A DNA stretch of 64,000 nt from Ectorhizobium quercum (GTDB taxonomy: Bacteria > Pseudomonadota > Alphaproteobacteria > Rhizobiales > Rhizobiaceae), in assembly GCF_026552795.1 (NCBI RefSeq), contig NZ_JANFPI010000001.1, positions 186,001-250,000 of the forward strand. The letters run 5' to 3'. Each line of letters begins with the position of its first letter. Within the stretch, counting starts at the first letter, position 1. Shown piece after piece: positions 35,416 to 56,322 of this stretch. Under the pieces are notes generated by a model. The model did no database searches and had not been told where the DNA came from. It saw nothing but the letters and a program-made list of their open reading frames with translations. The position numbers were made by a program, and so were the translations under genes.

Positions 35416-36048
35416 CTATTGCGGGAAGGCTTCGTTCTTGTAGGCGGCGGTCGCCATGATGAGGAAATAGGAATTCGACCCGTCGGTGCCGAGCTTGATA
35501 TTGCTGATATAGGGGCGGACGAGATCGGTGATCACCTGCCACTTGTAATAGGCGCGGAGCATGTTGATCGTGCTCGGCCCGCCCGGATTGTACTGGAAGG
35601 TGCTGGTGTCCAGGTCGGAGCCCTCTCCCTCCTCCTCTTCCTCCAGCAGGGTGAAGTTCTTCGGTATGCTGGCGAAATCGGGAAAGCTGCGGATGTCGAG
35701 GTAGAGTTTGGACGGGACGTTGATCTCGGATTCGCTACAGGAAATGAGGATCGATACCTCCGCGCAGAACGCCCGCCGGAATTCCGGCTCCGTGCTGCTC
35801 GCGGCGGTGATCTGGCCGGTGCGCAGCTTGCGCGCCATCGTATCCACCGCGTTCGAGACGAGCTGCTCGCCGGTGAAGGCGATGAAGGTTTCGAAGATGG
35901 CGAAGACGATGACGAAGTAGGGAATGGCGAGAAGGGCGAACTCGATGGCCGCGGCGCCGTCGCGCGATCTTGCCAGGCGGGGCAGGAGACGCCGCAGGCG
36001 TCCTCGGCGGGAGACGTGCCGTTTCTTCTTGTTCTGTGCGTCGCTCAT
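35416..36048 (-). CDS. TadE/TadG-like pilus assembly protein
   Basis: 210 residues. Strongly basic N terminus (KKKRHVSRRGRLRRLL), then DGAAAIEFALLAIPYFVIVFAIFETF (about 30-55), the TadE-type transmembrane segment. The periplasmic domain has an unusual acidic run (EEEEEGEG) near 135. Tad pseudopilins help pilus biogenesis at the inner membrane. First of two co-oriented TadE-like genes. Confidence 0.83.
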   Translation of the reverse strand: MSDAQNKKKRHVSRRGRLRRLLPRLARSRDGAAAIEFALLAIPYFVIVFAIFETFIAFTGEQLVSNAVDTMARKLRTGQITAASSTEPEFRRAFCAEVSILISCSESEINVPSKLYLDIRSFPDFASIPKNFTLLEEEEEGEGSDLDTSTFQYNPGGPSTINMLRAYYKWQVITDLVRPYISNIKLGTDGSNSYFLIMATAAYKNEAFPQ

Positions 36049-36128
36049 GCCGGTATCCGCATCCAGTCAGGACTACGAGAGTAGGGCGAGAGGGGTTTAT
36101 TTTCCGTTTCCGTCCATTCCACCGGGTT

Positions 36129-36542
36129 TTATGGACCAGTGGCGCCCGCCTGCTGCACATGCTTCTCGCAGTTCGGGGCGCAGGAGAAGACGTTCCGTTC
36201 CGTCTGCTTGTAGACGCGCACCGTGTTTCCCTCGTCGATCGACACCAGAATCCGCTCGTCGACGATCGGATTGCCGTCGATATCCAGGAGAAGCAGGTTG
36301 GTGGTGCCGAAATTCTTGCCGGTCAGGACGATCGTGCGGGCATCCGCGACGGTGGCATCCGCAACCGCGGCGTTGCCGATGATGACCTTGGCCACCGGCC
36401 GGTCCAGCCGCAGCACGCGCGCATGGTTCATGTAGACGAGCAGCATGTCGCCTTCCGGGGCGGCGTTCGCCGGGCCGGCACTCAGCGGAAGAAAGACGCT
36501 TGCAGCCATCGCCAGACAGGAAAGCAGGTTCTTGAGGGTCAT
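36129..36542 (-). CDS. Secreted protein with CpaC N-terminal-like domain
   Basis: 137 residues from MTLKNLLSC (start uncertain; MTAAMTLK 12 nt upstream is possible, and the frame stays open to 36650). Signal peptide ends near SAGPANAA. The rest resembles the N-terminal domain of the secretin CpaC: VLRLDRPVAKVIIGNAAVAD, then GKNFGTTNLLLLDIDG. It lacks the secretin channel. The C terminus carries a cysteine pair (SCAPNCEKH). Divergent from pilA, so it may support the pilus secretin. Confidence 0.75.
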   Translation of the reverse strand: MTLKNLLSCLAMAASVFLPLSAGPANAAPEGDMLLVYMNHARVLRLDRPVAKVIIGNAAVADATVADARTIVLTGKNFGTTNLLLLDIDGNPIVDERILVSIDEGNTVRVYKQTERNVFSCAPNCEKHVQQAGATGP

Positions 36543-36711
36543 GGCCGCGGTCATCCCGAAAATGGACGTGAAAAGCTCCGTGCCGAAAATGAACCGGATG
36601 GGTGAACGAAGCGTTAAGCCCGCCTTCGCGGCGGCCGTATATAGAGGCAAACGCGTTGCCGGTCCGGGAAACGGCTCCGGGAAATACCGGGTTCGAATTC
36701 GCGTGGGCGCC

Positions 36712-36728
36712 TTAGCCTTTTGTTTACC
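36712..36728 (+). promoter_or_regulatory. CtrA-like box upstream of pilA (distal)
   Basis: TTAG-CCTTTTG-TTTACC has the exact 7-nt spacing of the CtrA consensus TTAA-N7-TTAAC with two mismatches. Lies 147 bp before the pilin start codon. The weaker of the two pilA sites. Confidence 0.35.
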
Positions 36729-36750
36729 AACGCCTCCTTTCGGCCCGCCT

Positions 36751-36767
36751 TTAGCGCCCTCTTAACC
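36751..36767 (+). promoter_or_regulatory. CtrA-like box upstream of pilA (proximal)
   Basis: TTAG-CGCCCTC-TTAACC matches TTAA-N7-TTAACC with one change and the correct spacing, 108 bp before the pilA start. In Caulobacter pilA is a direct CtrA target, and Rhizobiaceae encode CtrA. Function here is inferred. Confidence 0.5.
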
Positions 36768-36874
36768 CTGTTCCTTAAATCGCTGGAAATGAGCCTGCGC
36801 TAATTTGTGGCCAACCGAACAACGGAAACAGTTGTCGGACGTGCTGAAAAAACGAGTGGAGTTAGGAGAGAGTA

Positions 36875-37084
36875 ATGACCAAGCTTTTCGCAAAGTTCCT
36901 GAAAGACGAATCCGGCGCGACCGCCATCGAATACGGCCTGATCGCAGCCCTCATTTCCGTCGCCCTGATCACCGGCGCGACGACGCTCGGCAACACGCTG
37001 AACGAAACGTTCGGCGCGATCTCTGACCGGATGGGTGAAGCCCGGGATAACATCCCCGCTGGTGCCGGCGAGGGTGGTGGCTGA
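36875..37084 (+). CDS. pilA: Flp/Fap-type major pilin
   Basis: 69 residues. The prepilin leader MTKLFAKFLKDESGA precedes TAIEYGLIAALISVALITG, with the Gly-Ala processing region and conserved Glu-Tyr typical of Flp pilins. The C-terminal tail ends in a Gly-rich GAGEGGG. Forms the filament of the tight-adherence pilus after cleavage by CpaA. The SD GGAGAGAG precedes the ATG. Alone between its upstream control region and a terminator, consistent with high expression. Confidence 0.94.
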   Translation: MTKLFAKFLKDESGATAIEYGLIAALISVALITGATTLGNTLNETFGAISDRMGEARDNIPAGAGEGGG

Positions 37085-37112
37085 TCGCTTGCATCGGCTT
37101 ATGCTGATCGGA

Positions 37113-37140
37113 GCGCCCTGCGGTTTTCGCGGGGCGTTTT
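37113..37140 (+). terminator. Terminator after pilA
   Basis: GCGCCCTGCG-GTTTT-CGCGGGGCG stem (one G-T pair) followed by TTTT, about 29 bp after the pilin stop. It would isolate the abundant pilA transcript from cpaA. Confidence 0.75.
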
Positions 37141-37239
37141 CGTTTCGGCGCGATGCTGCCGCCCGTTCGCCCTTTCTTAAGGGCGCGGGCCTATCCTGAC
37201 AGCAATGATTGCCGATCTTTCGAAAGGAGCGCGCCGGAA

Positions 37240-37752
37240 ATGACGACCGCAGCGATCTTCGTCGTATTGCCGCTTTGCCTCGCCTTCGCGGCGCTTTCCG
37301 ATCTGTTCACCATGACGATCCCGAACCGGGTTTCGGCAATCGTCCTGGCGGCGTTCCTCATCGTCGCCCCGTTCAGCGGGCTCGCCTGGAGCGAGATCGG
37401 CATGAGCCTCGTCGCTGGCGCGGCGGTCTTTGCCGCCTGCTTCGCCCTGTTCGCGTTCAACGTCATGGGCGGCGGCGACGCCAAGCTTTTGACCGCCGCA
37501 TCCGTGTGGTACGGCTTCGGCATGCCGCTGGTCGAGTTTCTCGTCTGCGTCGCCTATGTCGGCGGCCTGCTGACCCTGTTGATCCTGATCCTGCGGGCCA
37601 AGTCGGCCTCGGTGCTGGCAATGGGGCTGCCCATTCCCTCCTCCCTGCTTCTGGCCAAGAAGGTGCCCTATGGCATCGCGATCGCCATCGGCGGTTTCAT
37701 GGCCTTTCCGGAAGCGCCGATGGTGGCGATGCGCCTCGCCGGCACGGGCTGA
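37240..37752 (+). CDS. cpaA: Prepilin peptidase CpaA (A24 family)
   Basis: 170-residue membrane aspartic peptidase with about five transmembrane segments. The two catalytic aspartates are in SDLFTMTIPN (about residue 20) and MGGGDAKLL (about 76). Cleaves the PilA and TadE leaders. The start MTTAAIFVV follows AAAGGAGC at good spacing; an 87-nt longer frame reaches back over the pilA terminator region. Confidence 0.92.
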   Translation: MTTAAIFVVLPLCLAFAALSDLFTMTIPNRVSAIVLAAFLIVAPFSGLAWSEIGMSLVAGAAVFAACFALFAFNVMGGGDAKLLTAASVWYGFGMPLVEFLVCVAYVGGLLTLLILILRAKSASVLAMGLPIPSSLLLAKKVPYGIAIAIGGFMAFPEAPMVAMRLAGTG

Positions 37753-37785
37753 AGGCAGTCCTTGCTGCCACGACAGGTTATGAGC

Positions 37786-37810
37786 AGCCGGTCCTCTGGG
37801 CCGGCTTTTT
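37786..37810 (+). terminator. Terminator after cpaA
   Basis: AGCCGG...CCGGCT hairpin with a 9-nt loop followed by five T residues, 33 bp after the cpaA stop. Separates cpaA from the cpaB promoter. Confidence 0.7.
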
Positions 37811-37829
37811 GCGTCGGGGCGCCATTGGC

Positions 37830-37846
37830 GTAACCTGTTGTTAACC
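37830..37846 (+). promoter_or_regulatory. CtrA-like box upstream of cpaB
   Basis: GTAA-CCTGTTG-TTAACC has correct 7-nt spacing and one mismatch to TTAA-N7-TTAACC. A further TTAACCAT half-site follows at 37864. Located 95-111 bp before the cpaB start, between the cpaA terminator and the operon. Confidence 0.45.
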
Positions 37847-37940
37847 GAACACTTAAGGAAGTTGTTAACCATAATTACACCATTGCGGCCCATGCTTGTG
37901 TGACGAAGCAGCAGCTTGCGCACATTTGCAGGAAACGCCC

Positions 37941-38813
37941 ATGAAGCCCGCTCGCATTATCATTCTCGCCGTCGCGGTCGGCGCAGCCGGTCTTGCCGGC
38001 CTCATCGCGATGCGGATGACCGGCACGAAACAGGTCGTCATGCAGCAGGCGGAAACCATCGTCCAGAAGGAGCCGACCGTCAGGGTTCTCGTCTCCGCCG
38101 AGAACCTGCCCGTGGGCTCCCGCCTGAACGACAAGGCCGTCCGCTGGGCGGACTGGCCGGAAACGGCGCTTGTCGACGGCTTCATCACCGACCGTGCCAT
38201 GCCCGACGCTGTCAGGGACGTGACGGGCTCGGTGGTGCGCATGCCGCTCTTCGCGGGTGAGCCGGTCCGCCGCGAGAAGATCGCCGATGCGAAGACCAAC
38301 ATCATGTCGGCCCTGCTGCCGGCCGGAAAGCGGGCGGTTGCCACCGAAATTTCCGTTTCGACCGGTGCCGGCGGCTTCATCCTGCCGAACGACCGCGTCG
38401 ATATCATCATGGTGCGCCAGGCGGCGGGCCGCGGCTACACGACCGAGGTCGTTCTCGAGAATATCCGGGTCCTCGCCATCGACCAGCAGATTCAGGAGCG
38501 CGACGACGGCGTGAAGGCGGTGGTCGGCACGACGGCGACGCTCGAACTCACGCCCGACCAGGCCAAGGTCATGTCGGTCGCCCAGCAGATGGCCGACAGG
38601 CTGACGCTTTCGCTGCGGTCCATCGCGGACGCGCAGGAAGAGGACACGCGCTCGGCGGATTATCTCCTGAGCGGCGGCACGAATGCACCGGCCATCCAGC
38701 TCATCAAGTCGGGCGAGATCGTGACCAGCACGACGAGCGCCGGCGGTTCGCCCGCCACGCAGGCGGCGGGCGCCTCCGCCGGAGGGGTTCAGGACGGGAC
38801 GGAAATGCGATGA
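37941..38813 (+). CDS. cpaB: Flp pilus assembly protein CpaB
   Basis: 290 residues: N-terminal transmembrane anchor (IIILAVAVGAAGLAGLIAM), then an SAF-type domain (VLVSAENLPVGSRLNDKAVRW) and the RcpC/CpaB domain (STGAGGFILPNDRVDIIMVRQ). Periplasmic scaffold linking the inner-membrane machine to the CpaC secretin. The start MKPARIIIL follows GGAAACG. Stop overlaps the cpaC start, and all genes to tadC run in the same direction. Confidence 0.93.
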   Translation: MKPARIIILAVAVGAAGLAGLIAMRMTGTKQVVMQQAETIVQKEPTVRVLVSAENLPVGSRLNDKAVRWADWPETALVDGFITDRAMPDAVRDVTGSVVRMPLFAGEPVRREKIADAKTNIMSALLPAGKRAVATEISVSTGAGGFILPNDRVDIIMVRQAAGRGYTTEVVLENIRVLAIDQQIQERDDGVKAVVGTTATLELTPDQAKVMSVAQQMADRLTLSLRSIADAQEEDTRSADYLLSGGTNAPAIQLIKSGEIVTSTTSAGGSPATQAAGASAGGVQDGTEMR

Positions 38814-46909: not shown

Positions 46910-46926
46910 CTAACAGATCGTTAACG
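46910..46926 (+). promoter_or_regulatory. CtrA-like box between tadD-like and M17 genes
   Basis: CTAA-CAGATCG-TTAACG fits TTAA-N7-TTAAC with one mismatch. It overlaps a dyad CTGTTA-ACCC-TAACAG at 46901-46916. Lies 88 bp upstream of the TPR lipoprotein and 30 bp upstream of the aminopeptidase. Confidence 0.4.
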
Positions 46927-55948: not shown

Positions 55949-56097
55949 CTCGATTGCTCCTCCCCTACATATGGAAATGCTTCGGAAGGGAAGCCCTTTT
56001 GCCTTTTCCTCGCCTCTTCTGGATAGAGCCATTTCCCCTAATTCCCTTCCCCTGAATTCTTGCCTTCAAGCCCTTTCCCTTGGCTTTTCAGCATGGC

Positions 56098-56322
56098 TTA
56101 ACCCGGCAGCATCATGTGTCGGCTGCAGCAGATATGAGCGCTGCGGTTTGGGGTTTGTGAATGTTGTAATGGTCTGGCACCTTGCGCGGACCGCAACCAC
56201 TTCAGAGCTTCGAGGTCCTCGTCCTGAAACCGCATGAATATGGCCTTGCGGAGTTGGCCGTTGCGCAAATCGTGGAGCGCTTGCGCGATCACCGCCTGGT
56301 TGAGAGGATGCGGACCGGACAT
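56098..56322 (-). pseudogene. Truncated DUF2857-like protein of an integrative element
   Basis: 74 residues from MSGPHPLNQAVIAQALHDLRNGQLRK, resembling the N terminus of DUF2857 proteins found in conjugative elements. After DEDLEALKWLRS the sequence no longer looks like the family, and the protein is far shorter than the usual size. GAGG lies 9 nt before the ATG. The frame is open 129 nt further upstream. Together with the broken integrase it suggests a mostly deleted element. Family assignment is from memory. Confidence 0.4.

Follow-up and report, generated by a model that had tools for sequence, protein, structure and literature searches.

The tad locus and its annotated elements

The window, i.e. 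the whole 64,000-nucleotide stretch that was analysed, contains a tad cluster headed by a Flp/Fap pilin gene (PF04964, from profile matches in the window) with two CtrA-like boxes in front of it (Table 1). The plus strand of the cluster carries cpaA, cpaB, cpaC, cpaD, a gene in the cpaE position whose ParA match is weak and below the cut-off, cpaF and two TadB/C-type genes. TadE-like genes and a secretin-domain gene are found on the minus strand, the latter being called cpaI-like by analogy with smc04115, the neighbour of pilA1 in S. meliloti (available text of PMC10934763). At about 37110-37142 on the plus strand, 3' of pilA, there is a GC-rich inverted repeat with a T run, partly conserved upstream of cpaA, which is possibly a terminator or attenuator keeping pilin mRNA in excess. 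A scan with a terminator consensus was uninformative, with 3 terminator-like sites against 2.3 expected.

Table 1. Genes, predicted binding sites and leader elements around pilA, with positions in the window.
Feature	Position	Strand	Evidence or remark
Divergent cpaI-like gene, secretin N-terminal domain	36129..36542	-	PF13629, 2.7e-21
CtrA-like box of the cpaI-like gene	36601..36617	-	rank 5 in both scans
Distal CtrA-like box of pilA (second box of the original prediction)	36712..36728	+	TTAGCCTTTTGTTTACC, N7 spacing
Proximal CtrA-like box of pilA (first box of the original prediction)	36751..36767	+	TTAGCGCCCTCTTAACC, N7 spacing
Third CtrA-like element, reversed	36773..36789	-	overlaps the putative -35; most conserved promoter element
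Putative -10, TAATTT (conserved TAnnTT)	36801..36806	+	T 89, A 92, T 81, T 80% of 85 rows
Hairpin, putative 5' leader of pilA mRNA	36815..36838	+	CCG(A)ACAAC-GGAAACA-GTTGTCGG; 8 pairs
Rest of leader, conserved GTGCTGA and AGGAG ribosome site	36839..36868	+	GTGCTGA 86-94% per column at 36841-36846
pilA, Flp/Fap pilin	36875..37084	+	PF04964 (Flp_Fap), 1.3e-21; ATG at 36875
Possible CtrA box before cpaA	37166..37182	+	rank 2 with spacer, rank 19 masked
cpaA, prepilin peptidase	37240..37752	+	PF01478, 3.3e-16
CtrA-like box before cpaB	37830..37846	+	rank 3 with spacer, rank 6 masked
Second CtrA-like box before cpaB	37854..37870	+	rank 4 with spacer, rank 15 masked
cpaB, heads the secretin and motor genes	37896..38813	+	PF16976, 4.2e-27; start codon uncertain

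CtrA-like boxes upstream of the pilin gene

The scoring matrix was trained only on the promoters of ctrA, sciP, ccrM and rcdA, with the 30 best loci per gene from a search of 41 genomes of the same family, and pilA was kept out of the training to avoid circularity. As the training promoters are orthologs, the independent sites are fewer than 120. In S. meliloti, ctrA, rcdA and ccrM are bound by CtrA and the regulation of sciP is conserved, according to the available text of PMC4433202. Unseeded word counts found TTAG-N7-TTAA in 28 of 30 sciP promoters and GTTAACCA in all 30 ctrA promoters. Expectation-maximisation was run from five seeds of differing spacing; both seeds of the 7-base-spacing/neighbouring-register kind gave a TTAA-N7-TTAAC-like matrix, and the remaining seeds recovered the same half-site. 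The ccrM promoters alone led to TTcA-N7-TTTACC, which has the same form as the weaker box of the original prediction.

The original prediction held that two boxes with the N7 spacing of the CtrA consensus lie upstream of the pilin gene, and both can be read directly on the plus strand at the positions given in Table 1, spacing included. Their 3' ends are 146 nt (distal) and 107 nt (proximal) from the pilin ATG. When the simple consensus TTAA-N7-TTAAC was searched with at most one mismatch, five matches were found in the window against 0.76 expected, and none of 100 shuffles reached five or more. The proximal box is among the five, while the distal box, with two mismatches, is not. The matrix scan that had been proposed as a check placed both boxes far above background in either layout. 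Among 127,968 window positions, the proximal box ranks 2 and the distal box 7 with the spacer masked, and 14 and 1, respectively, with the spacer included; each box is equalled or beaten by 4.2e-6 of 239,808 background positions (spacer masked, 120 kb of the same genome). Thus, CtrA-type TTAA-N7-TTAA(C) sites are found upstream of the pilin gene, as expected of CtrA-regulated pilA promoters. Elsewhere in the window, the best spacer-masked site lies at 56087-56103 on the plus strand (TTCAGCATGGCTTAACC), and a CtrA-like site that ranks 8 in both scans is found at 46910-46926 on the plus strand, 30 nt before an M17 aminopeptidase ORF.

The conservation of the boxes was assessed in 80 Rhizobiales tad loci, those listed out of 580 confirmed by a CpaF scan of genome contigs; the pilin gene is ahead of cpaF in 75 of these 80. 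Together with the window, these loci provided 89 pilin copies, of which four without an ATG at the aligned start were left out, resulting in 85 aligned upstream regions. For the upstream-most copy with an ATG at the 73 listed relative loci and in the window, both boxes are present in register in 51 of 74 cases, one box in 21 (13 distal only, 8 proximal only) and neither in 2. At least one box is thus present in 72 of the 74, and some copy with at least one box exists at all 74 loci listed. Randomly placed windows give a chance rate of 1.9% per box and 0.08% for both. A first count of 74 copies had been obtained by removing 11 extra tandem copies after inspection of the alignment, and the upstream-most copy was used in a blind recount. 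Across all 85 ATG copies at the loci listed, both boxes are found in 53, one in 22 and neither in 10. All ten box-less copies are extra tandem pilin copies, and ten of the 11 extra copies have neither box. These extra copies (at L012, L019, L027, L028, L036, L039, L041, L045, L049, L058 and L066), some of which also have no leader, are perhaps cotranscribed or differently regulated.

In the 85-row alignment the half-sites stand out and the N7 spacers are largely not conserved. The right half of the distal box, TTnACCA, shows T in 98%, A in 93% and C in 85% of the rows, and the right-half TAA of the proximal box reaches 88, 89 and 98%. The locus of S. meliloti 4H41 has the sites in the same register, with scores of 10.1 and 13.5. 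Missing conservation in related pilA promoters would have spoken against the original prediction; the sites were found to be conserved there in register. A chance origin from TTAA-rich promoter sequence would fit with single consensus matches being common and with 4 of 200 column-permuted control matrices matching the score over the 200 bp that precede the pilin ATG. It is nevertheless extremely improbable, given the background rate per position, the lack of shuffles with five consensus matches and the register conserved among relatives, and was rejected.

The genome encodes a CtrA ortholog with 83% identity to Caulobacter CtrA over 1-226, and an ortholog is present in 40 of the 41 family genomes. 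A search of this genome with CtrA gives 20 matches at E up to 1e-10, which are mostly other response regulators, so it could be imagined that the pilA boxes are bound by a different member of the OmpR family that recognises a similar half-site. This is very unlikely, as identity drops to 37% for the next best match, the matrix derives from four CtrA-linked genes and CtrA itself binds in S. meliloti (available text of PMC4433202). In that species, pilA1 is CtrA-bound in ChIP-seq, its expression falls on CtrA depletion and it responds in lacZ fusions (PMC4433202, available text). The interpretation of the pilin boxes as CtrA sites is hence supported by the matrix, the conserved register, the ortholog and this precedent.

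A third element and the core promoter

The original prediction did not include TTnnTTAAGnCGATnGnAAA at 36772-36789, which is the promoter element with the highest conservation. On the minus strand it reads TTTCCAGCGATTTAAGG and is CtrA-like, with a score of 9.0 that 1.4e-4 of background positions reach; its TTAA is conserved in 92-95% of the 85 rows, and its left half (TTTC) departs from the matrix. The element is above threshold in 73 of the 74 upstream-most copies at the loci listed, against a null of 1.9%. Its reading as a plus-strand TTAA-N7-TTAAC box was dropped, with a score of 5.0 and rank 304 on that strand.

Taking the conserved TAnnTT as the -10 would put the third element over the -35. 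Of the 58 rows in which the TA of this motif could be placed (20 of 78 rows were unplaceable), 56 have it 14 or 15 nt 5' of the leader hairpin, and the pilA mRNA would start near 36812-36814. A sigma-70 consensus scan returned no promoter at the candidate -10 of pilA. By the precedent of Caulobacter, where the -35 CtrA site drives pilA and the upstream sites reduce and delay its expression (available text of PMC11264516), the third element is the probable driving site, in which case the two upstream boxes may serve the timing of expression more than its activation.

Taken together, it is likely that the boxes at 36712-36728 and 36751-36767 are CtrA sites in a three-site pilA promoter, with the -35 site starting the mRNA and the upstream sites tuning and delaying it. 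The sequence, the matrix scores, the conservation and the CtrA ortholog are the observations on which this model is based, and from it we infer the start site, the role of each site and the timing. CtrA~P bound to the reversed site over the -35 would recruit RNA polymerase to the TAnnTT -10, transcription would begin near 36812-36814, and the two upstream sites would tune the level and the delay of pilA expression, as they do in Caulobacter. A possible but clearly less probable arrangement is one in which all sites are purely activating, so that the upstream boxes would increase both the occupancy by CtrA and the output but would not delay expression. That CtrA regulates S. meliloti pilA1 positively (available text of PMC4433202) agrees with such an arrangement; however, the removal of the upstream sites in Caulobacter raises pilA activity and advances its timing by about 20 min (available text of PMC11264516), which favours the tuning role of the three-site model.

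Control by CcrM methylation was also considered and dropped: GANTC is not enriched, occurring within 120 nt of cpaB at 4 of 80 loci and of cpaI at 9 of 76, compared with 12.9% for background stretches. GANTC is found in the last 200 nt of 29 of 78 pilA promoters. A RAMA (CcrM-type) gene and one CtrA-like pattern each occur twice in this genome, with equal scores, on contigs C11 and C16; the assembly is given with 8.85% contamination, and these repeats are possibly duplicated sequence in the assembly.

A probable conserved hairpin in the putative pilA leader

In the 85-row alignment, the conservation of the approximately 55 nt between the putative start and the ribosome site is above that of the boxes. 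The leader alignment comprises 78 rows, seven copies without a visible leader having been left out, and the consensus of the hairpin is CCG-A-nCRRC / GYYGn-CGG. In these leaders, 96.0% of 604 cells are paired versus 90.8% in shuffles, and changes on both sides of a pair occur in 24 cells versus 5.3. The covariation of the hairpin is 0.220 versus 0.119 in shuffles, with slid versions reaching at most 0.049. Four pairs show two-sided change, a number matched by 12 of 500 shuffles. RNAalifold alone predicts only the inner five pairs.

A covariance model of the leader has a single significant place in this genome, which is pilA (3.3e-12; next 4.9), and also matches L068 and L085, both outside the model. 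The second Flp pilin of the genome (contig C4, L098) has no leader match, and no CtrA-like site was found in the 300 nt upstream of it (best score 3.0). Matches to the leader were obtained in 24 of the 41 family genomes, the window's own included; among the other 17, five have no Flp pilin and 12 have a pilin without a leader match. Out of the 25 matched places examined, 24 are just before a Flp pilin and the last precedes a truncated pilin match. A class-wide search found the leader in 1 of 289 genomes, which is weak evidence of absence since 19 candidates per genome were scored among the matches listed. Nine of the 24 held-out leaders were core-identical to training rows and were set aside. 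Of the remaining 15, 12 form all eight pairs and three form seven, with variants such as TCGAT/ATCGA, CTGGC/GCTGG and an outer TCG/CGA; these leaders were detected with a structure-aware model and their pairs assigned by best fit, a procedure that favours structure.

Alternatively, the palindrome might be a DNA operator for an unknown repressor rather than an RNA hairpin. The fold energy of the leader is ordinary (z -0.25, single sequence) and inverted repeats in DNA covary too, both of which would suit an operator. Nonetheless, at one position U-G is found more often than any other pair (27 of 76 rows), G-U pairs occur at others, the unpaired A is present in one arm only, and the hairpin has a fixed position relative to the -10 in the placeable rows, so that an operator seems unlikely. 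Protection from decay by a hairpin at the 5' end is established for other mRNAs. Located 1 to 3 nt from the putative 5' end, the pilA hairpin may protect the message from decay or bind a regulator. A search of Rfam release 15 over 36000-38000 with E up to 1 gave two matches, neither of which lies in the leader or reaches its gathering score, and no report of such a pilin leader was found in the literature searched, judged by titles.

CtrA-type boxes at the assembly genes

For the other tad genes, sites with a score of at least 11 were counted in the 250 nt upstream, or within 110 nt in the gene's own direction; the shorter limit was needed for cpaI because the 250-nt region overlaps the pilA boxes. 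Such a site in the own direction is present within 110 nt of the cpaI-like gene at 71 of the 76 loci listed, window included (background 0.28%), with the conserved form CTTAAc..TTCaTTCACCA. For cpaB, sites were found in the 250 nt upstream at 75 of the 80 loci listed, against 1.4% of 948 background stretches, and within 110 nt on the plus strand at 73 of 80, against 0.28%. The cpaA sites are poorly conserved, reaching the cut-off at only 19 of the 80 loci listed. The 250-nt counts for cpaC, cpaD, cpaE, cpaF and tadB are 1, 2, 1, 0 and 0 of the 80-81 loci listed, window included, and a TadE-like gene has a site at 18 of 71 loci listed.

The segment ahead of cpaB, 37828-37878 on the plus strand, has overlapping CtrA-like boxes together with a block, TTAACCATAATTA, into which the second box runs and whose columns are mostly at least 90% conserved in 80 rows (loci listed). 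Because this block runs into a -10-like TAATTA, CtrA may either activate or repress at cpaB. For S. meliloti, a single operon running from pilA1 through the cpa genes is described (available text of PMC10934763); this counts against cpaB as a separate unit, and the cpaB boxes would have to act in addition to such an operon.

CtrA control of the pilin is already known in relatives, S. meliloti pilA1 being a published direct target (PMC4433202, available text); what could be new here are the leader and the boxes at the assembly genes. Neither cpa nor Flp occurs as a term in the main text of PMC4433202. Sequence and conservation place the adhesion pilus of this Rhizobiaceae genome under the cell-cycle regulator CtrA, and the analysis points to the probable driving site of the pilA promoter. 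The leader adds a defined candidate RNA element at the putative pilin mRNA start, in a position analogous to that of leaders controlling mRNA life. As a tentative joint reading, somewhat short of an even chance, the Tad pilus of this family could be a two-layer cell-cycle module. CtrA would directly time the genes for pilin, secretin and motor as one set, in the position that GcrA occupies in Caulobacter, and a family-specific hairpin leader would stabilise the pilin mRNA or bind an RNA-binding regulator. If so, pilin output would be set by timing and mRNA lifetime. Such a module was not found described as such in the literature searched.

Comparison with known systems

The promoter resembles that of S. 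meliloti pilA1 in its orthologous pilin and cluster, and the sites of strain 4H41 share its register; pilA1 is bound and activated by CtrA (available text of PMC4433202). It is also similar to the pilA promoter of Caulobacter crescentus in combining one -35 site, putative here, with upstream CtrA sites (available text of PMC11264516). The two differ in number and distance, with three sites here and four there, separated by 22 and 5 bases here versus 31, 3 and 78 in Caulobacter. The ctp promoter of A. tumefaciens, described as having six CtrA half-sites, can be likened to the promoter here by that description (available text of PMC11264516). Furthermore, GcrA is credited with the basal bodies of Caulobacter and CtrA with CpaA and PilA (available text of PMC11264516), while in the present cluster boxes of the CtrA type lie ahead of both cpaB and the cpaI-like gene, which suggests that the tad assembly genes have been rewired to CtrA in the Rhizobiaceae and predicts that they are CtrA-wired in this genome.
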